A stretch of 64,000 nucleotides of DNA from a virus. The notes under the pieces were generated by a model that was given only the letters and a program-made list of their open reading frames with translations, was not told the DNA's origin and did no database searches. The position numbers were made by a program, and so were the translations under genes. The stretch covers positions 1-64,000 of the IMG/VR virus record IMGVR_UViG_3300038461_000061; one strand, 5' to 3'. Below, one piece after another: positions 4,386 through 56,245 of the stretch (positions are counted from its first letter, which is position 1; every line of letters starts with the position of its first letter).

Positions 4386-4637
4386 ATGAACAGAATGCGT
4401 GTGGCTAGAGAATTGGTTAAGGCGGCTAAAATGCTTATGGGCTTCAAAGGCAAACCATATACTCGTGAAGATGCTGCTGTGGCTCGCAACGAATTTGCCA
4501 AGGCCCGTCTTGTTCTTGATGACGCTTTTGGTAAACTAGACCAATACTCTGATATACCATACATTCACCGCATAGCATCAAGGTATCAAAATGCCCAAGG
4601 TGCTATCGAAGATATTATGGAAATGCTCAAGCCTTAA
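4386..4637 (+). CDS. Small protein with the KVAxELLKxAK-type N-terminal module
   Basis: An 83-residue protein beginning MNRMRVARELVKAAKMLMG, which matches the module shared by about 17 proteins in this window (basic start, then an amphipathic helix of the type VAxELVKxAKxL). The rest is helical, rich in Ala, Asp and Arg. The module may direct the protein to the phage head (see findings). It follows the previous gene by ten bases with a GGGA ribosome site. Confidence 0.65.
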   Translation: MNRMRVARELVKAAKMLMGFKGKPYTREDAAVARNEFAKARLVLDDAFGKLDQYSDIPYIHRIASRYQNAQGAIEDIMEMLKP

Positions 4638-25968: not shown

Positions 25969-26019
25969 AGGAGGTGATTTGCAGAAGGTGCTTTCTGTTA
26001 AAAGGTGCCTTCTGCAAAT
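25969..26019 (+). promoter_or_regulatory. Leader hairpin with strong Shine-Dalgarno before terL
   Basis: AGGAGGTGA (25969-25977) is a near-perfect 16S complement; it runs into a 12-pair perfect stem, ATTTGCAGAAGG (25977-25988) with CCTTCTGCAAAT (26008-26019). A TTG at 25979 opens a 20-codon frame in phase with terL, but it sits inside the stem and too close to the Shine-Dalgarno. The hairpin may be an attenuator or terminator, or may regulate terL translation. Confidence 0.5.
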
Positions 26020-26038
26020 TTGTTTCAGGGAGAGGATA

Positions 26039-29149: not shown

Positions 29150-29902
29150 ATGAATAAAATACACATAGCTAGAGAACTTTTGCATGTCGCCAAATTACTG
29201 CGCGGTGAATTTGGCAAAGCTAAAGATTTAACAGACGCAGAGAAAGAGCGTGCCAAGAAAAAGATAGACGCGGTGCATACGATTTCTCAGAATATACAAG
29301 GTCTGAGAAACAAAGTGACACGTGATTTAAAAAACGAAGATGAAAAGACACAATTAACTGCATTGGTTGTGGCCATGATGGATAAGACAGCGGAGCGTGT
29401 GGGCAATGATGCATCAGCAGAAGAAGACCATGTTGGCATCACTGGTTTGAAGAAGAAACATATTAAAGTCGAAGGTTCCAAAGTAATGCTGAATTATGTA
29501 GGCAAGTCGTCTGTAGAGCATGAAAAAGAATTCACTAATGAAACCATAGCCAAAATATTGTCAGGACTGTTAAAGAGAGCAGATAAGCCTGATTCTTTCG
29601 TGATGGTGACGAAAGACGGATTCAAAATCAAAGCCGACAAAATCAATCGTTACCTTGATGAGTTTGAAGTGACTGCCAAAGATATGCGCGGTTACTCAGC
29701 AAACCGCATGGTAATAGAATGCTTGAAGCGCCAAAACAGTATCAAGGAAGAAAAAGACCGGCAAAAGAAGTTTAATGAGATTATCAAAAATGTGGCAGAA
29801 AAAGTAGGACATGGGCCAGCTACACTAAGAAAACACTATTTACTGCCGGATTTGGAAAAGGGCTATATAAAAGATGGAAAAATAATGAATCTGAAAGAGT
29901 GA
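29150..29902 (+). CDS. Topoisomerase IB-like protein with N-terminal packaging-type module
   Basis: A 250-residue protein. The first 20 residues (MNKIHIARELLHVAKLLRG) match the module shared by many genes here. The rest resembles the catalytic domain of type IB topoisomerases: AERVGNDA holds an Arg, LKKKHIKVEG and VGKSSVEHEKEF a basic strand pair, VTAKDMRGYSANRM a second Arg, and GHGPATLRKHYLLPDL the Tyr nucleophile near the end. These enzymes relax supercoils through a 3'-phosphotyrosine. It follows terL by three bases, so a role during packaging or injection is plausible. A tyrosine recombinase is less likely given the order. Confidence 0.75.
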   Translation: MNKIHIARELLHVAKLLRGEFGKAKDLTDAEKERAKKKIDAVHTISQNIQGLRNKVTRDLKNEDEKTQLTALVVAMMDKTAERVGNDASAEEDHVGITGLKKKHIKVEGSKVMLNYVGKSSVEHEKEFTNETIAKILSGLLKRADKPDSFVMVTKDGFKIKADKINRYLDEFEVTAKDMRGYSANRMVIECLKRQNSIKEEKDRQKKFNEIIKNVAEKVGHGPATLRKHYLLPDLEKGYIKDGKIMNLKE

Positions 29903-39583: not shown

Positions 39584-40075
39584 ATGCCAAGCACTTACAG
39601 TACAACCTTTGTAGACCCAATTGATATTTTCAGAATTGGGGATTTTGTCACTCCACTCTATCCCGGCAGTGACAATATATTCTACGGTATCATTGTAGAC
39701 ATTTGCCGCAAAGAATACAAGGTTTACGTGGAATGGAGTGGTGGTTTGGTGAAGCAGCATGACCCTACTGAAATCCATCTGCATCCGTATTTTATGGATG
39801 AGAAGATTTATGAGCGTTACCGTGCGAGATTACGTCCTGAAGTATGTGTTGCCGCTTTGACTGAAACACCCAATCGTCCAGAAGTCGGCAAGCCTGAAAA
39901 TAGGGGTGCTGAAAAGCCTGTTGGCGGTGGATTCAGTATTATGCAAGATTTGGTTAAGAAAGATAGAGAAGAACATTTGCCGAAAGCAGTTACTCAAGTC
40001 AGTAGCATGATTAATAAGATAGCCAATAAAATAGCTGAGCCATATAACACCTTGCAATCGCGCAGAGTTAGTTAA
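39584..40075 (+). CDS. Hypothetical SH3-like head-module protein
   Basis: A 163-residue protein with GAGGGAGCAG upstream. Residues about 15-55 (GDFVTPLYPGSDNIFYGIIV, KVYVEWSGG) form a small SH3-like barrel. The C-terminus has an amphipathic helix SSMINKIANKIAEP that resembles the module at the start of the following genes. It may be a virion or scaffold-associated protein. Confidence 0.55.
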   Translation: MPSTYSTTFVDPIDIFRIGDFVTPLYPGSDNIFYGIIVDICRKEYKVYVEWSGGLVKQHDPTEIHLHPYFMDEKIYERYRARLRPEVCVAALTETPNRPEVGKPENRGAEKPVGGGFSIMQDLVKKDREEHLPKAVTQVSSMINKIANKIAEPYNTLQSRRVS

Positions 40076-40086
40076 TAGGAAGCAAA

Positions 40087-40320
40087 ATGGACAAGAAATT
40101 AGTAGCGTCAGAACTAATTAAAGTAGCCAGAAGTTTATTGGCTGTTTATCATCATGATGTTGGAAGAGTTTACAAGCGTTCAAAAGGTGAAGTAGAAAAA
40201 GAGTCTTGTATATGTCCTAAATGTAAAGATATTATGGAACGCCAACCATTTTCGAGGGGTGTTAAAATTTACATTTGTCCTGGCTGTGGTTGGAAAATAC
40301 CGTCTAACAAAGTCATATAA
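40087..40320 (+). CDS. Module-tagged zinc-ribbon protein
   Basis: A 77-residue protein: MDKKLVASELIKVARSLLA (the shared module), a short linker, then a zinc ribbon with CICPKC and CPGC about 22 residues apart. The next gene starts with almost the same 19 residues on an unrelated body. Zinc ribbons usually bind nucleic acid or partners. If the module directs head entry, this would be an internal head protein. Confidence 0.7.
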   Translation: MDKKLVASELIKVARSLLAVYHHDVGRVYKRSKGEVEKESCICPKCKDIMERQPFSRGVKIYICPGCGWKIPSNKVI

Positions 40321-40331
40321 AGGAAAAACAA

Positions 40332-40814
40332 ATGGATAAGAGACTAGTAGCCTCAGAATTAATTAAAGTAGCTCAGAGTTTATTGGCCATTGATTTCCCA
40401 ACGGATAGAGCTATGCAAGTCTATCTCAAGGAACATCCTGATGCTGATAAGAGAAATCACAAAGTAGTAAAGACGAAGCCAGAAGAGAATAAATCTAAGT
40501 CTGGAACTTTTGACTCGCATACAGATGCTTGGTTTGATGATGTTGTTAAAACTCCGCATAAAGACGATGAAGGGATTACAGAAGTAAATAAATTGATAAC
40601 CAAAGCTCCTTCAAAAGAAAATTTCATCAATGTAGTTAAAGCTTTGGGCAAGTCAAAGGCACCATGGAAAAACAAAGTTCTTCAACATGCTAAGGCTATT
40701 GTGGAAGGAAAATTTAGCGGCGAATTTGCGAGAAAACATGGACCAAAGAATCAGTCGAGCCAAGTCGGTGAATTTTTCTCAATGCTAAAACAGGCAATAA
40801 ATTACGACGATTAA
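40332..40814 (+). CDS. Module-tagged hypothetical protein
   Basis: A 160-residue protein with MDKRLVASELIKVAQSLLA at the start, 17 of 19 positions as in the previous gene, then a charged, Lys-rich body (NVVKALGKSKAPWKNKVLQH) of unknown fold. The abrupt change from a near-identical module to an unrelated body shows that the module is a portable element. Confidence 0.7.
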   Translation: MDKRLVASELIKVAQSLLAIDFPTDRAMQVYLKEHPDADKRNHKVVKTKPEENKSKSGTFDSHTDAWFDDVVKTPHKDDEGITEVNKLITKAPSKENFINVVKALGKSKAPWKNKVLQHAKAIVEGKFSGEFARKHGPKNQSSQVGEFFSMLKQAINYDD

Positions 40815-42011: not shown

Positions 42012-44276
42012 ATGAATAGACGCTGCGATAACGATAAATGCCTTTTGGAAGCTTCTAACAAAGCAAGAACATTCGAAATTGACTTGCCCATAGCCTCTAT
42101 CCTTTACAATCCAAAGAAGGAATGGAGCTATGCTGGTAATGGCAATGTTAGAATCGCCAGAGATATAAATATAGATTGGAATAAGTTCAGCGCAGACAAA
42201 TATTTATTCAGTCATTGTAGTATTGTATCAAGCTGCAATGTGGAAGAAAATGGCTACTACGTTAAAGCTCCTACCGATGAACTAGTCAATAATAATGGTA
42301 ATGGCTGGTCAGATGAAGTTCTACTGGCTTGTTTCCGTTCATTTGTGGGTGCTGAAAATTACCTTGAACATTGTTTTGTGGCTGGTACTAGAGTTTTAAT
42401 GGCTAATGGAACTTATCAAGCTATTGAGACTATAAAACCCGGTGATAAAATTATCAACAGGCTTGGAAATATAGATGTTGTAAAGAATGTTCAAATTAGA
42501 AAATCTACTTCTTTGACAAAAATAACAAGCAATGGAATTTTGTCAAGGGATATGTATGTCACCGCAAATCATCCATTTTGGGTATACCACGCCAGAGAGA
42601 CTTGCCCAAAAACAGGACGACCAAACAATCCACCTGATTTTAGTGGTTTGACGCTGAATAAGTGGACCGGATTTACTGTAGGTGTTCATAAGAGAAAAGG
42701 TGAAGATTATCCTTGTGGACTTACACCTCAATGGGTAGATGCCGGGAAGATAAATAAAGACCGTGATTTCTTAACTCATCCGGTTTCTTCTACTATAATA
42801 GAAAATAATGAAGTAAACAAGAATCGTGCAGAGTTAATAGGATGGTTCTTGGCAGAAGGTTCTTTTACTAGTCAAAATATATTTAATGATGGAGAGTCGG
42901 GAGTTCAATTTGCTCTTGGAAATGACGAATGCGATGTTGCAGAAAGAATAAAATCACTTTTAATTACAGAATTTGTAGAGTTGTTTAGAAGCGATTGCGA
43001 GCCTAGAGTATATGAATCTGAAAGTGGTTCTTGGTGTGTATCTCTTTGTAATATCAAAGTTGCAGAATTCTTCAAAAAATGGTGTGGTAAGTATGCTTGG
43101 GCAAAACAACTTAATGATGCGGCGTTATGGTTGCCCTTGGAACTACAAGCATTAATTATGAAGCATTTAATCAATGGCGACGGCACAGACAAAGGCGAGT
43201 CACGTGGTTATAGTATTGAATTAAAGACGAAGGCGCTGATTCAACAACTAATGTTTATATCTTGGCGTTTGGGAATGAACCCCGTATACAAAGAAACAGG
43301 TGTATTGCCGAGATATTCAGAAGAAACAATAGTAGACGGATATCAAGTATTCGTTGACCCCAATACCGGAAAGAAATCAAGACCCGGATATTTATTAAGA
43401 TTTACAGTACAAGATTCAAAATCGCTAGATGAAATTTTGAATTACAACAATGTACTCATCCAAGCAAGGCAAGAACAAAAGTTTACTTATGTATTTGAAC
43501 ATGAAAATCAAAAATACATAACCTCAAAGATTACAGAAGTATCTACAATTGATTTGGAGTGTGATGTATTTAATCTTGAAGTAGAAAATGATAATTCTTA
43601 TATAGCAGAAGGTGTTATAGTTCATAACTGTCAGATTCCAGAATTATCCAAGGGGAAAATTCTTGATGCTGTGCTGCGTCCTGTAGCTTATACTAGCAAA
43701 ACTGGTAAAAAGGCCAATGTCTACTACACGGACATTTTAGTTGCAACGGACAGAAAACATAGTGACCTTATTCGAAAGATAGAATCAGGCGCATTAACAA
43801 CTATGTCAATGGGATGTCAGGCAAACTTCACACAATGTAGTAAATGTGGTAAAGAATTCACTGATGCTAGTACCAATTGCCATCACTTAGATAATGAATT
43901 GATGACATATTTCGTAGATGAAAATGGCATCAATCGTATCGTAGCTGAATTGTGTGGTAGAACAATTATTGGTTCAGATGGAAAGAGGAAAGGTGACCCG
44001 AAATCTTGTATCTATATTGAAGCAAGTTGGGTAGAACGTCCAGCATTCCAAGGCGCGGTACTCAATCATTATATTAGTGAAGTGGATACAAAGAAATACG
44101 CGAATATCTTAAGTATGTCAACTACAAGCCTTGAAGGTTTGTTTGATGACATAAGTAGATTGCGCGTAGCAGATAAAAATGGAATGCTGGCGTTGCACGT
44201 GGCTTGTGCCGAATTGCGGAGACGTAAGGAGGAACAACTTATAAACAGAGTTACTATTTGGGCGGCAAAACACTAG
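42012..44276 (+). CDS. Prohead (capsid maturation) protease, intein-containing
   Basis: A 754-residue precursor. Removing the 419-residue intein leaves 335 residues. The extein has ENYLEH followed after splicing by CQIPELSKGKILDAVLRPVA, and later ALTTMSMGCQ, matching the His and Ser of prohead serine proteases (His in an E-H motif, Ser in S-x-G about 65 residues on). A zinc-like insert (CSKCG, NCHHL) follows. Gene order portal-protease-scaffold-capsid supports it. It should cleave scaffold and other head proteins. The intein lies directly after the likely catalytic His. The assignment is by motif and context, not search. Confidence 0.65.
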   Translation: MNRRCDNDKCLLEASNKARTFEIDLPIASILYNPKKEWSYAGNGNVRIARDINIDWNKFSADKYLFSHCSIVSSCNVEENGYYVKAPTDELVNNNGNGWSDEVLLACFRSFVGAENYLEHCFVAGTRVLMANGTYQAIETIKPGDKIINRLGNIDVVKNVQIRKSTSLTKITSNGILSRDMYVTANHPFWVYHARETCPKTGRPNNPPDFSGLTLNKWTGFTVGVHKRKGEDYPCGLTPQWVDAGKINKDRDFLTHPVSSTIIENNEVNKNRAELIGWFLAEGSFTSQNIFNDGESGVQFALGNDECDVAERIKSLLITEFVELFRSDCEPRVYESESGSWCVSLCNIKVAEFFKKWCGKYAWAKQLNDAALWLPLELQALIMKHLINGDGTDKGESRGYSIELKTKALIQQLMFISWRLGMNPVYKETGVLPRYSEETIVDGYQVFVDPNTGKKSRPGYLLRFTVQDSKSLDEILNYNNVLIQARQEQKFTYVFEHENQKYITSKITEVSTIDLECDVFNLEVENDNSYIAEGVIVHNCQIPELSKGKILDAVLRPVAYTSKTGKKANVYYTDILVATDRKHSDLIRKIESGALTTMSMGCQANFTQCSKCGKEFTDASTNCHHLDNELMTYFVDENGINRIVAELCGRTIIGSDGKRKGDPKSCIYIEASWVERPAFQGAVLNHYISEVDTKKYANILSMSTTSLEGLFDDISRLRVADKNGMLALHVACAELRRRKEEQLINRVTIWAAKH
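42372..43628 (+). mobile_element. Intein with LAGLIDADG endonuclease in the prohead protease
   Basis: 419 residues from CFVAGTRVLMANGTYQAIE (block A) to the end block GVIVHN; the next extein residue is Cys. Block B is VTANHPFWV. The endonuclease has LIGWFLAEGSF and IMKHLINGDGTD. Both splice junction residues are intact (Cys1, His-Asn, +1 Cys), so it should be active. It sits in the protease active-site motif E-H/C. Confidence 0.9.
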
Positions 44277-44494: not shown

Positions 44495-45262
44495 ATGGGA
44501 CGTGAAACAGGCTCTCTCGGTAAAGAAATCGAAGCTCTCGAAAAACGTCTTGCCGACCAAGACGACGAATTAAAGCAAGAAACAGAAGAACTCAAGAAGG
44601 AAGAAAAGGAAATCGTTGAAGCTTCTGATGGCGATATCCTCACTGAAATTCGTGCTCTTGAGGCAGAGTTGGAAGACGACGAATGTGAAGGTTGCAACGC
44701 TGCTGGTGAAGACGAAGAAGAAGAAGCATTTGAGGTTGAAGCGAAGAAAGCTGACGACGAAGAATGCGAAGGTTGTGACAAGCGTTCTGAGGATGAGGAG
44801 GAAACAATGGAAGCTTCTGACAAAGTAGCAGGCATGTTGGTGAAGCTTGCTCAAACAATTTTGGCCGAAGACGAAGTAGAAGAGAAAGTAGAAGCCAAGA
44901 AAGCCGAAGAAAAAGTAGAAGAGAAGGTAGAAGAGAAAAAAGCAGATGAACACGAAGAAAATGAAACAGTAGAAGAAGAAAAAGAAGAGGAAGCAAAGAA
45001 ATCCTCTGAAACAGAGCCTGGAATCGAAGACGAAATCACCCAAAAATTTGACAAGATGGAAGAAGCCTTTAACAGCCCGGTCAAAGGCGAAACGGGTGGT
45101 GAAGCCATTAAGCAACAGCGCACATCACGCTTGAAGGAAGCATCTGAGCGTCTGGACAACGTTGCTTCTTATCTCGAAAAACAAGGTTACAAGAAATTGG
45201 CACTCCGTATTGATACGTTGGCGGATGCTATTGACGCTCATCGTGCACAGATTTCTAAGTAA
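44495..45262 (+). CDS. Acidic scaffold-like protein with an internal module copy
   Basis: A 255-residue, very acidic protein. It has coiled-coil starts (IEALEKRLADQDDELKQE), two ECEGC units, then an internal copy of the module (MEASDKVAGMLVKLAQTILAED, about residues 106-127), Lys/Glu repeats (EEKVEAKKAEEKVEEK), and a C-terminal helix RLDNVASYLEKQGYKKLA. Acid-rich helical proteins before the capsid gene are typical of scaffold or core proteins. The internal module copy links the tagged genes to the head-assembly core. Confidence 0.65.
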   Translation: MGRETGSLGKEIEALEKRLADQDDELKQETEELKKEEKEIVEASDGDILTEIRALEAELEDDECEGCNAAGEDEEEEAFEVEAKKADDEECEGCDKRSEDEEETMEASDKVAGMLVKLAQTILAEDEVEEKVEAKKAEEKVEEKVEEKKADEHEENETVEEEKEEEAKKSSETEPGIEDEITQKFDKMEEAFNSPVKGETGGEAIKQQRTSRLKEASERLDNVASYLEKQGYKKLALRIDTLADAIDAHRAQISK

Positions 45263-45309: not shown

Positions 45310-46323
45310 ATGGCAAGAGAACGTCTTACTAAGCGTCTTGCTGCCGCTGAAGGTGCTGAAGGCAACGGTGGTGACCCTGAGAAACCATTTCCAGGTACAG
45401 TCAATCAGCCAGACCGCAAATTTGTAGAACGTGACCATTATCACACGTTTGAACACACAGTAAATCATGAATTACCGGATATGAGACACGATTGGCAGAA
45501 CGACCAGCGTGATGAAATCGGTTTCCCGATTCCAACCGTTGCCAGTATTCGTGCCGCTGCATCCAAGGCTGTAAAGTTGGCCGTTCTTCTTCTTGGTGAT
45601 AAGGTTGAAGAAAACACCATCGAAGCACAAGCCCGCGATTTCATGAAGATGGGTTCTGAATCTTTGAACGAATCACTCAAGAGATTTGCTGACTCAGAAA
45701 ACCTTTACAAGAAAGCCGAAGAGAAGGAAGAAGAGAAGGTAGAAGCCAAGAAAGCTGCGAACCCGATTGAAAACCTTGGCGATAAGAAGGCTCCACCTTT
45801 CACCAAAGAAGACGCCAAAAAGGCCGAAGATAAAGAAGAAGTAAAGGCCAAGAAGAGCGAAGATAAAGAAGAGGAAAAGGTAGAAGCTAAGAAGGCCGAA
45901 GACAAGGAAGAAGAAAAATTAGAAGCCAAGAAAGCCGAAGACAAGGAAGAAGAGAAGGTAGAAGCTAAGAAGGCCGAAGATAAAGAAGAAGTAAAGGCCA
46001 AGAAGAGCGAAGATAAAGAAGAAGAGAAGGTAGAAGCCAAGAAGGCCGCAGAATTGGATATTCAGCTAACGGCTGCGGAAGATGAAGAAGAAGGCGAAGT
46101 AAACGCTGCCGAAGAAAAGCTCTTGGCATCAATCTTCGAAGCAGAAGACATGGAAGAGAAGAAAGCCGAAGACGAAGAAGAAAAAGTAGAAGCTAAGAAG
46201 GCTTCTGAAAAGAAGGGTGTGTCAAAGCTAGGTGGACAGCCAAAGGTAGCTTCCGAAGGCAAGGAAATTGACTTGAGCAATCTTTGGGAAAGTGCACCGG
46301 ATGTAAGCAAGCTGTTTGAATAA
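45310..46323 (+). CDS. Acidic repeat-rich core or scaffold protein
   Basis: A 337-residue protein. The first 130 residues form a folded part with DRKFVERDHYHTFEH and a helix IRAAASKAVKLAVLLLGDKV that is similar to the module. A long Lys/Glu repeat (EDKEEEKVEAKKA and EDKEEVKAKKS forms) follows, then a short end (IDLSNLWESAPDVSKLFE) that could contact the capsid. It shares the EEKVEAKKAE unit with the previous gene. Likely a scaffold/core component. Confidence 0.6.
   Translation: MARERLTKRLAAAEGAEGNGGDPEKPFPGTVNQPDRKFVERDHYHTFEHTVNHELPDMRHDWQNDQRDEIGFPIPTVASIRAAASKAVKLAVLLLGDKVEENTIEAQARDFMKMGSESLNESLKRFADSENLYKKAEEKEEEKVEAKKAANPIENLGDKKAPPFTKEDAKKAEDKEEVKAKKSEDKEEEKVEAKKAEDKEEEKLEAKKAEDKEEEKVEAKKAEDKEEVKAKKSEDKEEEKVEAKKAAELDIQLTAAEDEEEGEVNAAEEKLLASIFEAEDMEEKKAEDEEEKVEAKKASEKKGVSKLGGQPKVASEGKEIDLSNLWESAPDVSKLFE
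45822..46049 (+). repeat. Tandem EDKEEEKVEAKKA coding repeats
   Basis: Six or so imperfect 27-39 base units such as GCCGAAGATAAAGAAGAA, in frame, alternate the forms EDKEEEKVEAKKA and EDKEEVKAKKS. They were produced by repeated local duplication. Confidence 0.8.
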
Positions 46324-47610: not shown

Positions 47611-48471
47611 ATGGCTATTGACAACAATACCAAACAGGAGATTATCAGTCAGTATATTAAGACTGCTGCTGGTCGTCAACGTTTGGCCGCAAGTATGATT
47701 CAGCCTCTACGCAGACGCCGCGATTATTCCAGCGTTGGCCGCAGAGCTTTCTACGTTGAACGCCTTCCAGACGGCGCTCTCCCCATCTACGATAAAGACC
47801 CGAACGTAACCGCGTATGTGGTTGGCGAAGAAGGCTTGAATATCGTAGCAGTTGCAAAGCCGAAGCGCGTTCTGTTCCCGCTCTTCGAAATCGCAAGCAA
47901 TCCAGAAATCCAGTTGACGGAAATCAAGAATCGCCGCTTCGACCTGATTGAACGTTCAGTAGATTTGGCGAAGGCTGAAATCCAGGCCGAAGAAGACCGC
48001 AAGGTTTTCGCGGTAATGGATGCTCTTTCGGCTAACCCGACCAACCCGAATCCAGCGATTCCTGTAACTGGTAACTTGACAGCCAACGCTCTGGCCGATG
48101 CTTTCGCCAACGTTGAAAGAACCGACATTCGCGTTGCCAACGTATTCCTGAACGCTAAGGACTACGCTGACCTCCGCAAATGGGACCGCGACACACTGGA
48201 CATCGAAACACAAGCAGTGTTGTTGAAGACTGGTTTGATGGCAACGCTGTGGGGCGCGAAGTTGATTGTTTCCCGCATCGTTCCAGAAGGTACAGTCTAT
48301 GTTTGCGGTGAACCAGAATTCTTCGGACGTATTCCTGTCCGCACAGAATTGACAGTATTGTCCGCTGACGACCCGAAGAATCGCTTGATTGGTTTCTCAA
48401 TCTTCGAGAATATCGGAATCGGAGCCTACAATCCATATGCGCTCCAAGTTTTGACCATCACGAGAGTATAA
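47611..48471 (+). CDS. Major capsid protein (HK97 fold)
   Basis: A 286-residue protein. LRRRRDYSSVGRRAFYVERL with YDKDPNV-x-AYVVGEEG, then FPLFEIASNPEIQL and LAKAEIQAEEDRKVFAVMDAL match a family of phage major capsid proteins; the tail ANVFLNAKDYADLRKWDRD and GAKLIVSRIVPEGTVYV reads as the A domain. A strong ribosome site (AAAGGAG) and a perfect terminator follow, as for an abundant protein. The start has no long scaffold domain, which fits separate scaffold genes. Confidence 0.85.
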   Translation: MAIDNNTKQEIISQYIKTAAGRQRLAASMIQPLRRRRDYSSVGRRAFYVERLPDGALPIYDKDPNVTAYVVGEEGLNIVAVAKPKRVLFPLFEIASNPEIQLTEIKNRRFDLIERSVDLAKAEIQAEEDRKVFAVMDALSANPTNPNPAIPVTGNLTANALADAFANVERTDIRVANVFLNAKDYADLRKWDRDTLDIETQAVLLKTGLMATLWGAKLIVSRIVPEGTVYVCGEPEFFGRIPVRTELTVLSADDPKNRLIGFSIFENIGIGAYNPYALQVLTITRV

Positions 48472-48865: not shown

Positions 48866-49273
48866 GTGGATAATAAAAAAGTAGCGTCAGAGCTTTTGAA
48901 AATTGCCAAGTGCTTAATAGCAGAAGGAAAAGTATTTGACATAAATAGTGTTGAAGATGCTATGACAAAATTAAAAAGTGGCATCAAGGCTCCGCATGTG
49001 TTTGTATCAAAAAGCACTCTTGGTGGTGATGAGCGTGTTTCAATTTACATAAAGCTATCTTTGGATGACAAAGCGAATTGGTCCAACGGCATTTACGAAA
49101 ATTCAAGGTATTTTACTATGTCTTTTTACAATGAGGGAATGCTTGAGGTTTTTAGTGGTGGATTAAGGTCACATAAATTTAGGAAGACGAGAGTGAAGAG
49201 TGTAGAAGATGCTATAACGAAGATTAACAAACATTTGAGTGAAGTAAAGGATGTGGACAAAACTAATTGGTAA
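48866..49273 (+). CDS. Module-tagged hypothetical protein (GTG start)
   Basis: A 135-residue protein starting with GTG after AAGGAG, giving MDNKKVASELLKIAKCLIAEG, the fullest form of the module. The body (beta strands VSIYIKLSLDD, FTMSFYNEGMLEVFSGG) is an unknown alpha/beta fold with the repeat NSVEDAMTKL and KSVEDAITKI at its ends. It is the first of a run of tagged genes after the capsid gene. Confidence 0.65.
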   Translation: MDNKKVASELLKIAKCLIAEGKVFDINSVEDAMTKLKSGIKAPHVFVSKSTLGGDERVSIYIKLSLDDKANWSNGIYENSRYFTMSFYNEGMLEVFSGGLRSHKFRKTRVKSVEDAITKINKHLSEVKDVDKTNW

Positions 49274-49321
49274 CTATAATTCTTTGATAGAACGCCATAT
49301 ATGAATAGGGGGATTAAAGCC

Positions 49322-49636
49322 ATGGACAACAAAAAAGTAGCTGGTGAATTAGTGAAGCTTGCTAAGTCATTAGTTTCAAAAATGGACAAAGAAGACATGG
49401 ATAGTGCTGATTTGGGCGAGCTTGTTGAAGAGCTTAGAGGCCAAGAAAAATTGAATCGAAATAATATGAAGGCATTAGAACGTGTAGTTAAAGCTATTGG
49501 CTATCTTAATCTTGAAGCATTTTTCAGCGATAATGAAGGGGCGGTTGAAACTCTTATTGGATGGATAGAAGATGTTGACAGCAAAGAATGGAAAGATTCT
49601 GTTAAGGACCAGCTTGAATATTCAGGCAAGGAATAG
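49322..49636 (+). CDS. Module-tagged helical protein
   Basis: A 104-residue protein. The ATG at 49322 gives MDNKKVAGELVKLAKSLVS; an upstream ATG at 49301 in frame has no support. The body is helical and acidic (DLGELVEELRGQEKL). No family recognised. Confidence 0.65.
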   Translation: MDNKKVAGELVKLAKSLVSKMDKEDMDSADLGELVEELRGQEKLNRNNMKALERVVKAIGYLNLEAFFSDNEGAVETLIGWIEDVDSKEWKDSVKDQLEYSGKE

Positions 49637-49638
49637 CC

Positions 49639-50013
49639 ATGGACAACAAAAAAGTAGCCGCAGAATTGTTGAAGATGGCTAAGAGTCTTGTAGCTGGTGG
49701 TATAGGCCAAAAGACATATACCGTATCAAAAGACATGGTAACTATTAATTGCATTATGACGTTTGAAAAAGGATTTTTGTATGAGGGAGAAACCGTAACT
49801 GCTTTTGGGCAGTTTTGGAAGGATTTGAAGGGTACAAAAACTGCATTGAACGGAGAAGGATTTAGAACTATCAATTTGAATTCGCCGAGATTGATTGCGG
49901 ACGATAAATATCATGATGTGGTTATTCAATCTACAATAACTTTACCATTAGCCGAACAGAAAATATCGCAAGTGCATCAAGCTATGAAAAATTTATTTAT
50001 CAAAAAAATGTAA
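49639..50013 (+). CDS. Module-tagged hypothetical protein
   Basis: A 124-residue protein with MDNKKVAAELLKMAKSLVAGG, starting two bases after the previous stop. The body is alpha/beta with a strand-rich centre (MVTINCIMTFEKGFLYEGET) and a C-terminal helix. Unknown function. Confidence 0.65.
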   Translation: MDNKKVAAELLKMAKSLVAGGIGQKTYTVSKDMVTINCIMTFEKGFLYEGETVTAFGQFWKDLKGTKTALNGEGFRTINLNSPRLIADDKYHDVVIQSTITLPLAEQKISQVHQAMKNLFIKKM

Positions 50014-50037
50014 AGCTTGTATTGGGAGAGTAAAACC

Positions 50038-50283
50038 ATGGACGACAAAAAGGTAGCCGCAGAATTGTTGAAGCTTGCGAAGTCGTTATGTGCTGAAGAA
50101 ACGGCAAAATCCAAGCACGATAAATTGACAAAAGAGGTAAATAAATTGGTAGAAAAACTGCGAATCAAGTTAAAGAGAGATGCAGAAGCTTTTAAGAAGG
50201 ACGAGAAGGATTGGGGTTATGTAGGTTCATTAGAGCGCGTACAATCGTCTCTTGAAGATTTGAATTCATTTTTAGGGGAATAA
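50038..50283 (+). CDS. Module-tagged small helical protein
   Basis: An 81-residue protein starting at the ATG after GGGAGAG: MDDKKVAAELLKLAKSLCAEE, then a basic helix (KLTKEVNKLVEKLRIKLKRD). It is helical throughout, so the module may continue into a coiled coil. Unknown function. Confidence 0.65.
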   Translation: MDDKKVAAELLKLAKSLCAEETAKSKHDKLTKEVNKLVEKLRIKLKRDAEAFKKDEKDWGYVGSLERVQSSLEDLNSFLGE

Positions 50284-50286
50284 ATC

Positions 50287-50850
50287 GTGGACACTTCTAA
50301 AATAGTAATCAAAGTAGCCAGAGATTTTCTTGCTGACCTTATTTTGTCGGATAAAGACAAAAAGGTTATTGATGCTTTCACAGACAAAAAAGCTCTTACA
50401 GGCAAGAAGCTTTCTACTGACGGCAAGACGCTGGACGGCAGTTGGATGGGCGGCAATAAACTTGCACATTGGGAAGGCGATAAAATCGTTATCAATGATG
50501 TAGGTTCAAAAGCAGGTGATGTGGTTGCAAGATATTTAAGAAAAATTGCTCCCAAAAATTTCTTTGCAGCAGAAGGTATGTTTGATATTGGCAAGACCTA
50601 TCAAGTAGTAACGGAGTTTTCAGCTTATTGGGTAGAAGGTCATGAAGCCGTTTCTCCTCATAGTGGTGAAACTTCTACTGCTGTTAATTTACTAGAAGGC
50701 AATTTAGTGAAGGTACTTAGGAAGCGCGGCAGTTGGTATGAAGCCAAACTACTTCATCCGATTCGCTTAACAGACAACGGCAAGACATTCACACACCAAG
50801 GCGAAGTTCTAATCAGCAGTATGGACGCCGACAACCTTATGGAAAAGTAG
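50287..50850 (+). CDS. Tagged hypothetical protein (GTG start)
   Basis: A 187-residue protein beginning MDTSKIVIKVARDFLADL, a looser copy of the module. Residues about 45-90 (KLSTDGKTLDGSWMGGNKLA) are a distinct alpha/beta segment, and a second domain from about 100 looks SH3-like (YQVVTEFSAYWVEGHEAV, LVKVLRKRGSWYEA). No catalytic residues recognised. Confidence 0.6.
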   Translation: MDTSKIVIKVARDFLADLILSDKDKKVIDAFTDKKALTGKKLSTDGKTLDGSWMGGNKLAHWEGDKIVINDVGSKAGDVVARYLRKIAPKNFFAAEGMFDIGKTYQVVTEFSAYWVEGHEAVSPHSGETSTAVNLLEGNLVKVLRKRGSWYEAKLLHPIRLTDNGKTFTHQGEVLISSMDADNLMEK

Positions 50851-50865
50851 GGAAGGATGATACCA

Positions 50866-51393
50866 ATGAGTCTTGATTCGATAATTACCAAGATAGCCAA
50901 GAGCTTTTGTGCAGACCATGTACGTGGTTTATTGCATTTCAATGGCAGAGTCCAAGGCGTCATTGAGTTTGCCATTACTAATAAAAACCATGTACATTTG
51001 AGCACTCCTAATATTTCAAAATTGAAGTTACGGAATGATGAATTCAATGTCAGTCTTCATCTTTTTGAGATTGGTGGTGTTTGGCAGGTTAGAAATGCTG
51101 ACCGTCCTTATATCACCCGCAATTTTGATGATGCGCCACCAAGTTTCAGAAGGATTATCATAGATGAAATTACTAAAGCTTGGAATGAGCATATCAAAGC
51201 ACATCCAGAACAAACTGCCGAAGCAGAAGGAAAGAGGAAAAGTGATTTGTTGAATTCGATAAGACTTGATATTGCTTCAACAGAGAAGGAATTGACAGAA
51301 TTGAAGGATATGCTATCTGATATAGAAATAGAAGGTAGTGATTTAGATGAGATACAAAATAAAATCTCAGAAATCAAGAAGAAATACCACTAA
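50866..51393 (+). CDS. Tagged hypothetical protein
   Basis: A 175-residue protein. The ATG at 50866 (MSLDSIITKIAKSFCADH) has better spacing to GGAAGG than the one at 50857. The N-terminus is a weak module copy. A beta domain (GVIEFAITNKNHVHLS) is followed by a coiled coil (LDIASTEKELTELKDML). Unknown function. Confidence 0.6.
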   Translation: MSLDSIITKIAKSFCADHVRGLLHFNGRVQGVIEFAITNKNHVHLSTPNISKLKLRNDEFNVSLHLFEIGGVWQVRNADRPYITRNFDDAPPSFRRIIIDEITKAWNEHIKAHPEQTAEAEGKRKSDLLNSIRLDIASTEKELTELKDMLSDIEIEGSDLDEIQNKISEIKKKYH

Positions 51394-51403
51394 AGGATAC
51401 ACC

Positions 51404-52036
51404 ATGAACAACAAGAAAGTAGCTTCCGAACTAATGAAAGTAGCACAATTATTGACTGCTAAAGATGAAGGTAAAGAAATCGGAAGTGTTTATCTTCATA
51501 TTAGTAATAGCGGCGTGACATTCAAAGTAGTTGACAAGGGTTTCGGTCCTACTATTGTTGTGTATTCAAGCTCTTTTGGAAATGCTATCAACGAACTTGA
51601 AATCATAACACATGGTGAAGCTTTAGCTGCTCTTGGTGAGCTATTTACAGAATGTTCAAAAGAGACATACAGCAAAGAGTATAATGGTGGGTTGGCAAAA
51701 CTGAGCGAGAAGAAGATACCTCATAAACTTCCAGAAACAATGTACGGAGAAAAAGGAACAGAAGCGAAGGAGAAAACCAAAAAAGCTTGGCGAGACGAAG
51801 GCTACGGAGAAAAGCTGCGCGATGTTGAAAAACAGCGGTGGAATGAATTGGAGCAAGGTAACAATCCACAACATGAACATCAAGCAGAAAGAGAATATCA
51901 ACGTTGGAAACGCACAGTAGAAAAGGCTTTTAACAAGGAACAATTGGAATCTTTTGGTGAAGACCAACTACGGCATTTGTTTGATTCGGAATGGTCTTTT
52001 AGAGAAGCCATAGATTTCATCAGAAACAAAGTCTAG
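51404..52036 (+). CDS. Module-tagged hypothetical protein
   Basis: A 210-residue protein. The ATG at 51404 (after AAAGGATA) gives MNNKKVASELMKVAQLLTAKD. An alpha/beta domain (SVYLHISNSGVTFKVVDKGF) is followed by a charged, Trp-rich helical tail (QRWNELEQGNNPQHEHQ; REYQRWKRTVEKAF). No family recognised. Confidence 0.65.
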   Translation: MNNKKVASELMKVAQLLTAKDEGKEIGSVYLHISNSGVTFKVVDKGFGPTIVVYSSSFGNAINELEIITHGEALAALGELFTECSKETYSKEYNGGLAKLSEKKIPHKLPETMYGEKGTEAKEKTKKAWRDEGYGEKLRDVEKQRWNELEQGNNPQHEHQAEREYQRWKRTVEKAFNKEQLESFGEDQLRHLFDSEWSFREAIDFIRNKV

Positions 52037-52042
52037 GACTAT

Positions 52043-52747
52043 ATGCCGGATTTAGGCATTATCTTTCAATACTATGACGGTGCCCCTGCTGACGTAGTTA
52101 CACAAAATCTATCTTCTCTTATCCATTACAGTAACGGTAAATATCCCATAATTCCATTAAAGCGTACTGAGGGCCAATCTGCTTGGCGTAATGGCGATTT
52201 GGGGATGTTTCATTGGTATCAACAAAGGAAAGTGGAATGTGCTCGCTGGCTTTATTTGGAATGGGATGCTTATTGTTGTCAGTCTATAGAAGATTTTTTC
52301 AAGCCGGTATGGAGTGATGATATATCTGCTCCAAACATTGCATTGCCAAATAATGGATGGCATTGGTTCTGTGAAATTGGAAACTTACCTACGCAAGCAA
52401 TACGTGAAAATGCTTGTGGGGTGTGGCCTATGTGTGCTGTCATGATGTCTGACAAAGCAATGAACGTTTTATCAAAAACAATTATTAACGAACCATGGCC
52501 AGTCATCTCTGAATTGAGAGTGGGAACAGCAGCAAAAATGAATGGTTTTATTATTAAAGAACACCCGTATTCAAAGTATACTATTAAGTGGTATGTCTCC
52601 GATGAAACAAATATTGCGGCTCGATATCATAGAAGTGGTATTTGGCATCCTATAAAGACTCTTGTTAATGACGATATCCCAAAACGTGATATCAACAGTT
52701 TAGACGTTTTTGTATGGCCAGATAAGGAAATTGGATTTTATGAATGA
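52043..52747 (+). CDS. Glycosyltransferase-like protein, copy 1
   Basis: A 234-residue protein without the module. LGIIFQYYDGAPADVVTQNL and LYLEWDAYC (a D-x-x-C/D-like metal site after a strand) resemble GT-A type glycosyltransferases. The next gene is a close paralogue (LYLDWDVFF). They may glycosylate virion or host surface molecules. The assignment rests on fold-level features only. Confidence 0.45.
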   Translation: MPDLGIIFQYYDGAPADVVTQNLSSLIHYSNGKYPIIPLKRTEGQSAWRNGDLGMFHWYQQRKVECARWLYLEWDAYCCQSIEDFFKPVWSDDISAPNIALPNNGWHWFCEIGNLPTQAIRENACGVWPMCAVMMSDKAMNVLSKTIINEPWPVISELRVGTAAKMNGFIIKEHPYSKYTIKWYVSDETNIAARYHRSGIWHPIKTLVNDDIPKRDINSLDVFVWPDKEIGFYE

Positions 52748-53453
52748 TTTGGGCATCATTTATCAATACCATGACACTGCCGATATAAATGTAGTACGGC
52801 AGAATCTTTCTTCTGTCATTCAATGCAACACCAACAACTATCCACTCATTGTCATTCGCAGTACAGATTGTTCTGGTGACGCATGGTTCCATTGCGATAT
52901 CCCTATGTATTATTGGTATCAGCAAAGAAAGGTAGAATGTAAACGTTGGCTCTATTTGGATTGGGATGTGTTTTTTGGTATGCTTGTAGAAGAATTTTGC
53001 AGGCCGGTTTGGGATGAAGACATATCGGGGTCATCTTTACCGGGGAACGATTGGTCGTGGATGAGGACAGTTTATCAGTTGCCAGTAAAAGCGCAACCTT
53101 ATGCTTGTGGTATAGCACCATCATGTGGATTGTTGATGAAAGATGAAGTCATGGCGATGTTGTCTAAGACATTCACTCAAGAATTTTGGCCTGTGATTTC
53201 TGAAATGAGAACAGCTACGGCAAGCAAGATGAACGGATTTAAGGCCAAGCAGCATCCTTTCGCGTATGAGACATTTTGGTGGTATTGTAAGCCGGAATTT
53301 GATGCTGGTGTGGTGAACAAAGAGAAACGAGTGTGGCATCCGATAAAGAGTGTTTTGAGAAATGACATACCTCTCTGTGACATGAATAGCCTTGAAACTT
53401 TCGTTTGGAAAAAGCCTGAAAACTTACCCGGCCTTTATGATACAAAAAAGTAG
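52740..53453 (+). CDS. Glycosyltransferase-like protein, copy 2
   Basis: A 237-residue paralogue of the previous protein, starting inside its last codons (eight-base overlap). Conserved blocks are YQQRKVECKRWLYLDWDVFF, KMNGF and R-V-W-H-P-I-K. D-W-D takes the place of a D-x-D metal motif. The tandem pair interrupts the series of tagged genes. Confidence 0.5.
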   Translation: MNDLGIIYQYHDTADINVVRQNLSSVIQCNTNNYPLIVIRSTDCSGDAWFHCDIPMYYWYQQRKVECKRWLYLDWDVFFGMLVEEFCRPVWDEDISGSSLPGNDWSWMRTVYQLPVKAQPYACGIAPSCGLLMKDEVMAMLSKTFTQEFWPVISEMRTATASKMNGFKAKQHPFAYETFWWYCKPEFDAGVVNKEKRVWHPIKSVLRNDIPLCDMNSLETFVWKKPENLPGLYDTKK

Positions 53454-53497
53454 TCTTTTGATTGTTAGATTCAAAGGAATAGGTTGAATTGTAACAA

Positions 53498-53514
53498 TTA
53501 TTTTATACTCTCCT
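53498..53514 (+). promoter_or_regulatory. TTATTTTATACTCTCCT motif
   Basis: It shares TTTTATACTCTCCT with the element at 4125-4138 and lies about 40 bases before the ATG at 53552, after the glycosyltransferase pair. It may start a transcript of the second tagged-gene run. Confidence 0.35.
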
Positions 53515-53551
53515 ACCATTAGACAGTACCTTATTTTGGCAGGAGATTATA

Positions 53552-53926
53552 ATGAACAAAATAGCTTTGAGATTGATTAAACTCGCCAGAGAAGTAATCG
53601 CAGCCGACCATAAGATTGTTAAAGAGCTTAAACTACGGTCTGGAACGGTTATTCCTGTTGGTATGCACTGTAAAGTCGAATGGAAAAACAAAGACGCCAG
53701 TGTAGCTATTGTTACGATAGACGATGATGAAGTCCAGCCAATCAAGATACATACTAGTTCATTGTATAAGTATATTAGCGGATTTCACAAAACACCGAGC
53801 ATGAACACACTTGAAAAATGGAGCAGCGATGGAGTGGCTAAGAGTGTTACGGGCCAAAGAGTGGAGCCTGATGGTTGGGGCGTTGATGGTGCGCCTAGTT
53901 GGTTATTGGCTATTGGTGTAATATAG
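53552..53926 (+). CDS. Module-tagged hypothetical protein
   Basis: A 124-residue protein with GGAGATTATA before the ATG. It starts MNKIALRLIKLAREVIAADH, a variant of the module, followed by a beta-rich body (GTVIPVGMHCKVEWKNKDASV) and a Gly-rich end. Unknown function. Confidence 0.6.
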   Translation: MNKIALRLIKLAREVIAADHKIVKELKLRSGTVIPVGMHCKVEWKNKDASVAIVTIDDDEVQPIKIHTSSLYKYISGFHKTPSMNTLEKWSSDGVAKSVTGQRVEPDGWGVDGAPSWLLAIGVI

Positions 53927-53938
53927 GGTGGTTGTAAA

Positions 53939-54487
53939 ATGAAAAAGATAGCCATTGAATTGATGAAGATAGTTGCCGACATGATAGCGATGCAGCCTGA
54001 GTATTTCTTGTCGTTTTTGATAAGAAAAGGACATCCAAGATTTGTCAATGAAGGTAAAGAAGGTGTTGATAGAGATGCGCCAAGAGGTATGGAACTAGAT
54101 TCAGAACATTATGGAACGGCCTATTATGGCACATTGAGATTTGACGTAAGCTGTTCTACTATGGAATTTTTGGCTGCTATCGCTACGGAACAATTTGGTG
54201 AAGACAGAGACGGTTTGAAGAAGTATCTGAATCAATTTAAGAGAACGGCTGAGAAATACGATTGGGTCAGAATTAAACAAGACATTATTGAACGTGCCAA
54301 AGATATGTTGAACAATGATGACTCAGATGTTATTTGGAACGACCTAATCGGGAAGGAATATAGTTCTTCTGGCGCGTTGGAAAAGAACTTGACTTTGAGT
54401 TGGTTGAAAGTAGACATCAATGAACGGAAAGCAACTTTTTCTCTTGGGCTAGATTTTGAAATTGTGCAGGAAGATGAAGGCAGATAA
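53939..54487 (+). CDS. Module-tagged hypothetical protein
   Basis: A 182-residue protein starting MKKIAIELMKIVADMIAMQ, a looser module. The body has an alpha/beta part (YYGTLRFDVSCSTMEFLAAI) and a strand-rich end (NLTLSWLKVDINERKATFSL). Unknown function. It overlaps nothing and ends 13 bases before the ferritin-like gene. Confidence 0.6.
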   Translation: MKKIAIELMKIVADMIAMQPEYFLSFLIRKGHPRFVNEGKEGVDRDAPRGMELDSEHYGTAYYGTLRFDVSCSTMEFLAAIATEQFGEDRDGLKKYLNQFKRTAEKYDWVRIKQDIIERAKDMLNNDDSDVIWNDLIGKEYSSSGALEKNLTLSWLKVDINERKATFSLGLDFEIVQEDEGR

Positions 54488-54500
54488 GGACATGAAGACT

Positions 54501-54836
54501 ATGGATAATAAGAAAATTGCTTCAGAACTACTCAGGATAGCAAAAGGACTCACATCTGGTGCCGCTGATAACTTTGGCGAGCTAATCAAGGGTGAATCCA
54601 AAAATGTCAATCTGAGGGCAATACGAGTAGCGACGATGGCTGAATATGAAGCTATCAACTTGTATGAGCGATTGGCAGAAGTAGTAACCGATAAGAAGCT
54701 CAAAGAAGTATTACTTGATATTGGCAGGGAAGAAAAAGTTCACGTCGGAGAATTGGAAAAGATGTTGACCACTTTAGACTCAGAGCACAAGCCTTCTGTT
54801 AACGAAGGTGCCAAGGAAGTGGATGGAAAAGAATAA
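54501..54836 (+). CDS. Module-tagged two-helix ferritin-like protein
   Basis: A 111-residue protein. The start at 54501 gives MDNKKIASELLRIAKGLTSG. The body has two helices laid out like rubrerythrin or encapsulated ferritins: AEYEAINLYERLAEVV with candidate Glu ligands, and LLDIGREEKVHVGELEKML with an E-x-x-H pair. Two helices would dimerise into a four-helix di-iron site. Encapsulated ferritins are known cargo of HK97-fold encapsulins, so a module-tagged ferritin-like protein near an HK97 capsid gene is notable. Iron binding or peroxide removal is a reasonable guess. Confidence 0.65.
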   Translation: MDNKKIASELLRIAKGLTSGAADNFGELIKGESKNVNLRAIRVATMAEYEAINLYERLAEVVTDKKLKEVLLDIGREEKVHVGELEKMLTTLDSEHKPSVNEGAKEVDGKE

Positions 54837-54887
54837 TCATAACAGGTAAGGCGTATAGATGCGCCTATTTTAGAAAGGAAGAACCCA

Positions 54888-55136
54888 ATGGACAGACAGA
54901 AGATTGCGGCGGAATTGTTGAAGCTGGCCAAAGAGCTTGTAAGTGCTGAAACTTTCCCATGCCCTGATTGTGGCACTAAGGTTTTGGAGAATACTGGCTA
55001 TTGTCTAAAGTGTAAGAAGAAAGTCAAGCAAGCAGCGGTTGCGGCTGGCACGTTTCCTTGTCCTAATTGCGGAACAAAAGTTCTTGAAAATACTAAGTAT
55101 TGCTTGAAGTGCAAAAAGAAAGTAGAACCTAAGTAA
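54888..55136 (+). CDS. Module-tagged double zinc-ribbon protein
   Basis: An 82-residue protein: MDRQKIAAELLKLAKELVSAE then two nearly identical zinc ribbons, FPCPDCGTKVLENTGYCLKC and FPCPNCGTKVLENTKYCLKC, each with C-x2-C and C-x2-C. The ribbons arose by internal duplication. With the module it is a compact candidate internal virion protein that may bind nucleic acid. Confidence 0.75.
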   Translation: MDRQKIAAELLKLAKELVSAETFPCPDCGTKVLENTGYCLKCKKKVKQAAVAAGTFPCPNCGTKVLENTKYCLKCKKKVEPK

Positions 55137-55164
55137 TTGTAATGAAATTAAAAGGAGAATAGCC

Positions 55165-55497
55165 GTGAATAAGATAGCTTTAGCTAAGGAGCTACGGAGA
55201 GTAGCACAAATTCTAACTGCATGGGATGAAGAAGGCACGTTAAATTTTTTCATCCCATACACAGGCAATCCTGAAAAGACTAAAGGAAAACTTGATGATT
55301 ATGTCAACTCCTTTAGCGGCGATTATGAATTTGACCTTTACATGGGCAGTATTAGTGTTACAGCTTTAAGAGGCCAGCCCGGTTTGATTGCGATGCCTGT
55401 TACTTTTGAAAACAGGAATCAGGCACGTAAAATGATGCGGGAAGTCAAGGCAGACGCTAATGCAAAGAAGCTAGGCATCACTGTTGAATGGGATTAG
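55165..55497 (+). CDS. Module-tagged hypothetical protein (GTG start)
   Basis: A 110-residue protein with AAAGGAGAATAGCC before a GTG. MNKIALAKELRRVAQILTAWD is followed by an alpha/beta domain (LNFFIPYTGNPEKTKGKLDD; ISVTALRGQPGLIAMPVTFE). Unknown function. Confidence 0.6.
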   Translation: MNKIALAKELRRVAQILTAWDEEGTLNFFIPYTGNPEKTKGKLDDYVNSFSGDYEFDLYMGSISVTALRGQPGLIAMPVTFENRNQARKMMREVKADANAKKLGITVEWD

Positions 55498-55498
55498 T

Positions 55499-55633
55499 AT
55501 GAACAAGAAAGCCATTGAAGAACGATTGGTTCTAGCTTATACCTTCAATGTGTTTGAGGAAGGGGGAGATTTATTCAACCCCCCCTTCCTTGGGGAACAA
55601 ACAAGAAGTCTCACCCTTGAATGTAGAACCTAG
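55499..55633 (+). CDS. Short open frame, possibly a disrupted gene
   Basis: 44 codons starting at the stop of the previous gene (MNKKAIEERLVLAYTFNVFE). A run of seven C bases at 55581-55587 follows a G-run. The frame at 55548 overlaps it, so a one-base slip in the C-run could join the two into one gene. Alternatively this is a short coupled peptide. Confidence 0.35.
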   Translation: MNKKAIEERLVLAYTFNVFEEGGDLFNPPFLGEQTRSLTLECRT

Positions 55634-55868
55634 ATTGCCACACGACATAGAGCGTTGGAATCAAATCAAGCTAAAGAAATACATAGCGCACCTAGACAAG
55701 AAGATTAAAGCGTATGGCAATTTCATGTTCGAGAATAGAGAAGCTTTGCGTGAGCGTGACAATCGTGACATATCTATAAACATCAAGAAACTCATTGACC
55801 GGTTGCAAGAATTGGGAGCACAAGCTAAGATAATCATGTATAGCAACTTCAATGAGGACATAAAGTGA
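55548..55868 (+). CDS. Hypothetical helical protein
   Basis: A 106-residue frame. Its beginning (MCLRKGEIYSTPPSL) covers the G- and C-runs and may not be real; from about residue 26 (NVEPRLPHDIERWNQIKL) it is a convincing charged helical protein (LKKYIAHLDKKIKAYG). No ribosome site is clear, which supports a fusion by frameshift with the preceding short frame. Confidence 0.45.
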   Translation: MCLRKGEIYSTPPSLGNKQEVSPLNVEPRLPHDIERWNQIKLKKYIAHLDKKIKAYGNFMFENREALRERDNRDISINIKKLIDRLQELGAQAKIIMYSNFNEDIK

Positions 55869-56245
55869 ATTATTCAGAAGTAATCGTTCGAATAGCCAAT
55901 GATATCCTCTCGAAAGACAGGCCAAATACTTTGTTCGAACAGGCATTTTTCGATTTACGTATTAAAATGAAGGATTTGAAACATGACGCTGCTGAGAAGA
56001 TTTTGAAGCGCCTAGAAAAGACATTGAAGGAAGACCTGATTAGTAAAAAGGTTGACGTGAAGGATTTGGATATGAAGCTTGGTGCTTTTAGAGGCTCAAA
56101 CTTTATCACATCTTCCAAGCTGCATGTAATTATGAGAAGCGAAGAAGACGCCCAAAGGCTGGCGAAATATCTGCAAGAGACGTTCAGCCCCAAGTTCAAA
56201 TTCAAGAAATTGGAAGACGGCATAGCAGAATTCAATATCCGCTAA
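55865..56245 (+). CDS. Hypothetical protein with a loose module (GTG start)
   Basis: A 126-residue protein with a four-base overlap (GTGA) with the previous stop. It starts MNYSEVIVRIANDILSKD, a weak module copy. The rest is helical with a final alpha/beta part (SSKLHVIMRSEEDAQRLAKY). It converges with nadD; the two stop codons overlap. Confidence 0.55.
   Translation: MNYSEVIVRIANDILSKDRPNTLFEQAFFDLRIKMKDLKHDAAEKILKRLEKTLKEDLISKKVDVKDLDMKLGAFRGSNFITSSKLHVIMRSEEDAQRLAKYLQETFSPKFKFKKLEDGIAEFNIR

Follow-up and report, generated by a model that had tools for sequence, protein, structure and literature searches.

Why do so many otherwise unrelated proteins of one virus begin with the same short sequence? 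This question is raised by a 64,000-base stretch of DNA (hereafter the window), which represents positions 1 to 64,000 of the 66,331-base IMG/VR record IMGVR_UViG_3300038461_000061 and is a piece of a huge-phage genome. A preliminary description of the window, made from the sequence alone, listed about 17 genes whose products share an amphipathic N-terminal module and proposed that it targets proteins to the phage head or binds them to the scaffold. The results presented here give good support to the view that the module is a portable localisation tag, as judged from its unrelated passengers, its replacement between phage lineages and a case of gene fission, while the prohead core is the best-supported reading of where the tag would lead.

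A short module on unrelated proteins

All 17 genes of the preliminary list are present in the window, each on the plus strand. When scored with the final profile of 16 columns, whose core reads [K/R]-[I/V]-A-x-E-L-[V/L]-[K/R]-[V/I]-A-[K/R]-[E/D]-L-x-[A/G/S], 14 of their N-termini gave 19.7-36.1 bits. These tags, the three weaker cases and one internal module are given below with coordinates and strand.

4386..4442, +, tag of gene 4386-4637 (36.1 bits)
29150..29206, +, tag of gene 29150-29902, topoisomerase IB (27.5 bits)
40087..40143, +, tag of gene 40087-40320, zinc ribbon, fission product of a longer ancestral protein (32.1 bits)
40332..40388, +, tag of gene 40332-40814, HPxAD domain (28.0 bits)
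48866..48922, +, tag of gene 48866-49273, 135 residues, the passenger being a phrog_3308 domain (33.2 bits)
49322..49378, +, tag of gene 49322-49636 (32.8 bits)
49639..49695, +, tag of gene 49639-50013 (35.9 bits)
50038..50094, +, tag of gene 50038-50283 (31.2 bits; ortholog in the relative L006 with a 49% identical passenger and the same tag)
51404..51460, +, tag of gene 51404-52036 (31.6 bits)
53552..53602, +, tag of gene 53552-53926 (27.8 bits)
53939..53989, +, tag of gene 53939-54487 (19.7 bits)
54501..54557, +, tag of gene 54501-54836, ferritin-like passenger (33.8 bits)
54888..54944, +, tag of gene 54888-55136, two zinc ribbons (35.5 bits; tagged ortholog in the relative L172)
55165..55221, +, tag of gene 55165-55497 (22.3 bits)
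50287..50850, +, gene with a probable decayed tag (5.9 bits, not significant alone)
55865..56245, +, gene with a probable decayed tag (9.6 bits, not significant alone)
50866..51393, +, weak case, unsupported (-0.8 bits; no tagged ortholog found)
44819..44866, +, internal module in protein 44495-45262, corresponding to the C-terminal module of a separate protein of ~100 residues (protein A) in relatives

The tags of 50287 and 55865 have probably decayed, since the orthologs of these genes are canonically tagged: that of 50287 in L006, with an 82% identical passenger, starts VNNKKIASALLKVARGMLA, and that of 55865 in the relative L129 starts MRDLLARELTGLARALVAKERP. The preliminary count thus stands for 14 genes by score and for two more through their orthologs; gene 50866 drops out, and the internal module in protein 44495-45262 had been missed. 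A profile made from the tags of the window itself found nothing at 8 bits or more in the reversed window. The helix is strongly amphipathic, just as described before (Eisenberg moment 0.57 vs. 0.28 for shuffled sequences). A single-sequence structure prediction of the 54501 protein, which has no bearing on function, gave the tag as a low-confidence helix (residues 3-29) followed by a confident two-helix hairpin. At the DNA level, fourfold sites were identical in 59 of 142 comparisons between window tags (42%, vs. ~30% expected from codon use), and the DNA upstream of the tags differs from gene to gene. Because the fourfold sites are near random and the upstream DNA is unshared, the tag is kept by selection on the protein and not as a DNA repeat.

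A profile search over the window and its relatives (2.29 Mb, most of the contigs being fragments) gave 268 module matches at 10 bits vs. 8 in the reversed sequence. Sorted by passenger, the 168 tagged reading frames form 111 groups, of which 93 have a single member, in keeping with a portable module on otherwise unrelated proteins. The number of tags varies widely, from 4 in 200 kb of the relative G002 to 31 in G003, where ~25 tagged genes lie within 16 kb. In IMG/VR, there are many fragments with an 85-100% identical capsid protein and fewer at ~70%. Among deposited sequences, the closest relatives are the metagenomic genome LR745208.1 (70% identity; 485 kb), Tunturiibacter phage Tunturi_5 (48%; 308 kb) and Bacillus phage G (37%). 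A search of annotated phages with consensus peptides of the module found no match at E<=10, so that the module is absent from deposited phage records at high identity. No N-termini common to several proteins were found in phage G (head region only) or Tunturi_5 (part only). Short tags were also sought in relatives by degenerate DNA patterns; the pattern matches in L231, L235, L236 and L253 were dismissed as chance matches.

Few of the 144 passengers scanned against Pfam have a match. Those that do include tRNA nucleotidyltransferase (four genomes), topoisomerase IB, zinc ribbons, a rubrerythrin/EncFtn-like domain, S-adenosylmethionine lyase (3e-8), LPD29 (3e-17) and DUF7007 (4e-20). The zinc ribbons, topoisomerase IB and ferritin-like fold named in the preliminary description were all recovered. 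The topoisomerase IB of gene 29150 (PF01028, 3e-30) is carried untagged by most relatives. LPD29 belongs to the polyvalent-protein domains, for which delivery together with phage or plasmid DNA has been proposed. The ferritin-like passenger of 54501 has as its top PDB matches 5N5E (1e-13) and 2E0Z (6.5e-13), the Pyrococcus encapsulin ferritin domain, and is next closest to the encapsulin cargoes EncB, EncC and EncFtn. These encapsulin-type relatives are proteins that work inside an HK97-fold shell; 54501 is the only passenger of this kind. The tRNA nucleotidyltransferase of L012, L137, L151 and L164 has a diverged tag and is encoded between the portal and capsid genes.

Replacement of the tag between capsid lineages

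The lineage with a ~70% identical capsid protein does not have the module described above (tag 1) but has a second tag, LRSKLIRLAHxNPxLRxxLLPLLK (tag 2). Among contigs bearing a capsid gene, with overlapping records included in the counts (e.g., L074 lies in G008), tag 1 was found only at a capsid identity of at least 85% (287 matches, 51 of 61 contigs, no tag-2 match), and tag 2 only at 60-85% (41 matches, 6 of 18 contigs, no tag-1 match). No contig has both tags, and the tag type tracks the capsid lineage without exception. LR745208.1, the only annotated phage matched by tag 2, bears it 11 times on different proteins and is devoid of tag 1.

The same passengers may stand behind different tags. 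The LR745208.1 ortholog of 48866 (32% identity over 87 residues, 5.6e-8), encoded two genes upstream of the capsid gene, starts with tag 2, MTTLRSKLIRLAHENPALRPQLLPLLKEAG; the cyanophage homologs of its phrog_3308 domain are untagged. The HPxAD domain is preceded by tag 1 in the window (40332) and many relatives, and by tag 2 in G038, where the residue directly before the domain is A or G in most cases. In G038 and G008, tag 2 is found at N-termini, internally and at C-termini. A further case is the zinc ribbon of 40087, which in relatives continues the 39584 protein at its distal end, the two making up one longer protein (..LRSRRA followed by MYW..). In the window, this ribbon has been split from the ancestral fusion and forms a separate gene with its own tag, next to the remaining half:

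39584..40075, +, proximal half of the ancestral protein (the distal half being the tagged gene 40087), ending in ..LQSRRVS and a stop

Natural portability of the tag is suggested by its replacement on two passengers (48866 and 40332) and by one tagged fission product. A different N-terminal motif, M-x-R-[Y/F]-x-I-[A/I]-L-x-K, was seen in ~10 proteins of G001 (128-137 kb and 437-448 kb), where it may or may not represent a third tag type.

The head-gene cluster and the end of the tag

The genes of the head cluster follow each other in the order terminase, topoisomerase IB, portal, protease, acidic proteins, two decoration-like copies and capsid protein, with the following members in the window.

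31981..34221, +, portal (phrog_16240, 1.5e-23)
42012..44276, +, prohead protease (phrog_18299, head maturation protease) with an intein (residues ~121-539)
45310..46323, +, acidic Lys/Glu-rich protein C, candidate scaffold/core protein by its composition and its position between the protease and capsid genes
47611..48471, +, major capsid protein (phrog_2522, 6e-52)

The density of the tags peaks within 40 kb of the capsid gene. All 187 counted N-terminal tags are on the strand of the capsid gene, vs. ~80% of reading frames in general; there are 2.3-2.4 of them per 10 kb in the intervals -10..0 and +10..+30 kb from the capsid gene, and none at -40..-20 or +40..+100 kb. Every tag-1 contig in which this region is covered encodes the prohead protease; among these contigs, there was no tagged genome devoid of it, a finding that the preliminary description had named as refuting head targeting.

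The module is also present in the proteins encoded between the protease and the capsid gene. Protein A, whose gene lies 2.3-2.9 kb upstream of the capsid gene, bears it in many genomes 0-2 residues before the stop, as in ..VSEADKVKVAKKLVTLARELLGE followed by the stop. In the window, protein A is fused to the next protein, B, which is why its module is internal there (44819). Protein C shows a degenerate module at ~45550 (8.2 bits). Neither A, B nor C has a family match in Pfam or PHROGs. In L066 and L030, single reading frames contain three or four modules, several of which directly precede a passenger domain that other genomes encode as a separate tagged gene. Tags within one genome resemble each other, and a genome's own C-terminal module is closer to its own tags than to those of other genomes (p 0.003, 14 genomes).

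The final residue of the tag depends on whether a protein follows. For this comparison, modules were located by columns 1-14 only, and a following protein was defined as at least 7 residues. Column 16 of tag 1 is A, G or S in 168 of 191 modules with a protein following vs. 8 of 29 at C-termini (p 3e-11), and the flanking columns are far less constrained when a protein follows (37/191 in column 15 and 82/191 in column 17). Just as in tag 1, column 26 of tag 2 is a small residue in 32 of 38 cases with a protein following vs. 1 of 5 at C-termini (p 0.007). An earlier split of the tag-1 modules agrees (132/152 vs. 6/28); the profile was first trained on 16-column N-terminal modules, which biases their absolute percentages upward and affects the contrast with C-terminal modules less. 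Amphipathicity or helix capping poorly explains the small residue, as this residue is on the polar side of the helix and Ala favours helix formation. As far as sequence can tell, such a residue is what would be expected of a protease cleavage site. The T4 gp21 and SPN3US proteases recognise a triplet that ends at the cut, with Glu (PMC7411985, PMC10052503).

Several other features of the region were noted. The intein of the prohead protease is in-frame; L030 has an intein at the same place, and the protease of L028 is intein-free. Of the 1055-residue terminase large subunit (25979-29146), only residues 20-135 and those from 556 onwards can be aligned with shorter relatives, so that this protein probably also bears an intein, of ~420 residues. 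The capsid gene is preceded by two very similar copies of a decoration-like protein (46375-46887 and 46929-47438). The major capsid gene of L066 (4032-7725) is interrupted by homing-endonuclease-like reading frames and that of G031 is in four pieces; these splits are probably introns. A paralogous pair devoid of the tag (52043-52747 and 52710-53453) lies inside the tagged cluster, and a reading frame on the minus strand (56242-56838), nicotinate-nucleotide adenylyltransferase-like by eye only, begins an opposite-strand block of genes with no tags.

Probable destination of the tag

We consider it probable that the module is a targeting signal for the prohead core, probably removed thereafter by the prohead protease. 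The core is the best-supported destination because modules are found between the protease and capsid genes, the tag type tracks the capsid, the tag ends in a cleavage-like residue and one passenger belongs to a family of encapsulin cargoes. A tag that is lineage-specific and replaceable needs a lineage-specific receptor, and the simplest candidate for this role is the prohead core, just as the prohead protease is the simplest agent for the terminal site. According to this model, an amphipathic helix of ~19 residues ending in L-x-(A/G/S) would serve as the localisation signal and would let unrelated proteins assemble together with the prohead core in this lineage of huge phages. The tag would probably attach to the core by packing its helix against core subunits, or through a site on the shell or core that is used by the core's own helix, given that core-type proteins (the C-terminus of A and the A-B fusion) carry the same helix. 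The prohead protease would then probably cut after the small residue, and the cargo would stay in the head to be delivered with the DNA.

The closest functional parallel is the T4 capsid-targeting sequence of IPI-IPIII and Alt, an N-terminal signal of 10-20 residues on unrelated proteins, which is removed by the prohead protease and is able to load foreign proteins (PMC7411985, PMC5694885). Both signals are short, precede unrelated proteins and end in a hydrophobic-x-residue triplet, and, as a T4-type signal requires, a prohead protease is encoded, as are candidate core proteins (core by position only) between the protease and capsid genes. However, the would-be P1 residue is A, G or S in the tag and E in T4, and the tag is also found internally and at C-termini, has dozens of cargoes and exists in two lineage-specific versions. 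The likeness to T4 drawn in the preliminary description does not extend to sequence: T4 ipI-ipIII, of which ipII and ipIII start MKTYQEFIAEA, scored from -3 to -22 bits with the tag-1 profile and below -25 bits with that of tag 2. The tag may thus work like the T4 signal by analogy, not as a member of its family.

In SPN3US and phiKZ-like giant phages, several inner-head proteins have N-terminal propeptides, two of them of 20 and 24 residues, which the prohead protease cuts after A-x-E and which have been proposed to serve prohead targeting (PMC5694885, PMC10052503). Most of these propeptides, unlike the tag, are ~80-130 residues long, do not share a portable sequence and are cut after E. The N-terminal region of P1 DarB sends this protein, and also a reporter, into the head (PMC9024508); here, however, a single protein is concerned, with no repeated short tag. 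Encapsulin cargo-loading peptides are likewise short signals that dock unrelated enzymes inside an HK97-fold shell. The present signal differs in being an N-terminal helix of a phage with a portal, scaffold region and protease: it is tailed-phage portal, large terminase, protease and capsid genes that the window carries, not those of a portal-less cellular nanocompartment. In herpesviruses, the C-terminal helix of the scaffold binds the capsid protein and is cut between A and S in (V/L/I)-x-A-S by assemblin, a protease of possibly related fold. This site resembles the L-x-A at the tag end, a resemblance only. In the open-access literature that was searched, we found no description of a lineage-wide portable tag.

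Several points weigh against the prohead core as the destination. It is from sequence that we infer the presence of the tagged proteins in virions, the removal of the tag and its receptor; the cleavage site is a constraint on residues, and A, B and C are called core proteins by position and composition only. Zinc ribbons, tRNA nucleotidyltransferase and similar passengers are not among the recognised virion proteins. Neither tag is present in G001 (469 kb), although its capsid protein is of the same family (70%), and hence a close lineage can do without both. Finally, the tags of LR745208.1 are scattered rather than clustered with head genes, some of them opposite to the capsid strand; the T4 ip genes likewise lie apart from the head cluster.

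The scattered tags of LR745208.1, together with the nucleic-acid or metabolic look of many passengers (tRNA nucleotidyltransferase, topoisomerase IB, zinc ribbons), would also suit a tag that gathers proteins into another phage assembly, such as a replication/transcription body, a nucleus-like compartment or the tail, and lineage-specific tags fit any receptor that co-diverges with the capsid. We regard such a destination as unlikely, as this helix also forms the end of protein A, next to the protease and capsid genes, and recurs in fusion proteins of that region, the tag density peaks around the capsid gene, and the cleavage-like constraint fits a maturation protease. Somewhat less probable still is a helix that merely oligomerises, holding the tagged proteins and protein A together in a heteromeric complex and not serving as an address. 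The alanines at positions 4 and 11, seven residues apart, do suggest close helix packing, and both the N-terminal, internal and C-terminal occurrence of the module and its resemblance within a genome would fit an assembly helix; this leaves unexplained, however, why a small residue stands at the exact border when a protein follows and why orthologous passengers bear tags of different kinds. Oligomerisation may in fact be the mechanism of core targeting instead of its rival.

The strong hydrophobic moment and the basic residues on the polar face are also what a membrane-binding helix would show, one that recruits phage proteins to the inner membrane of the host. This we hold to be very improbable: a membrane does not vary with the capsid lineage, whereas the tag does so invariably; tag 2 has conserved prolines and another pattern; and an Ala-rich face and a C-terminal or internal placement in acidic core-type proteins speak against it too. 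The lowest credence goes to the idea that the N-terminus has no function of its own, in spite of the small size and adjacency of the genes, which would suit either an expanded gene family with diverged downstream parts or an element for recombination or translation start that is conserved at the DNA level. The divergent gene family was rejected in view of the 111 passenger groups, the same passengers behind different tags and the internal and C-terminal modules, and the DNA repeat or translation-start element in view of the near-random synonymous sites and unshared upstream DNA.

A more general scheme might also hold: each capsid lineage would have its own tag read by its own core, any gene that gains the tag, dozens of them so far, would become head cargo, and during head maturation the tags would be removed and fused cargoes separated at small-residue sites. 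We give this broader cargo-loading code an even chance.

Soil-type huge phages bear the same short helix as a tag on dozens of proteins that are otherwise unrelated. As the internal head proteins of huge phages belong to no common family, predicting them is difficult. A tag that served as a head address would point straight to candidate injected proteins in many uncultured phages, among them a tRNA nucleotidyltransferase, an encapsulin-type ferritin domain, a polyvalent-protein domain and a match to S-adenosylmethionine lyase. Such a tag would also mark core proteins in a lineage whose scaffolds escape recognition by homology, and would offer two distinct signals by which proteins could be loaded into very large capsids.

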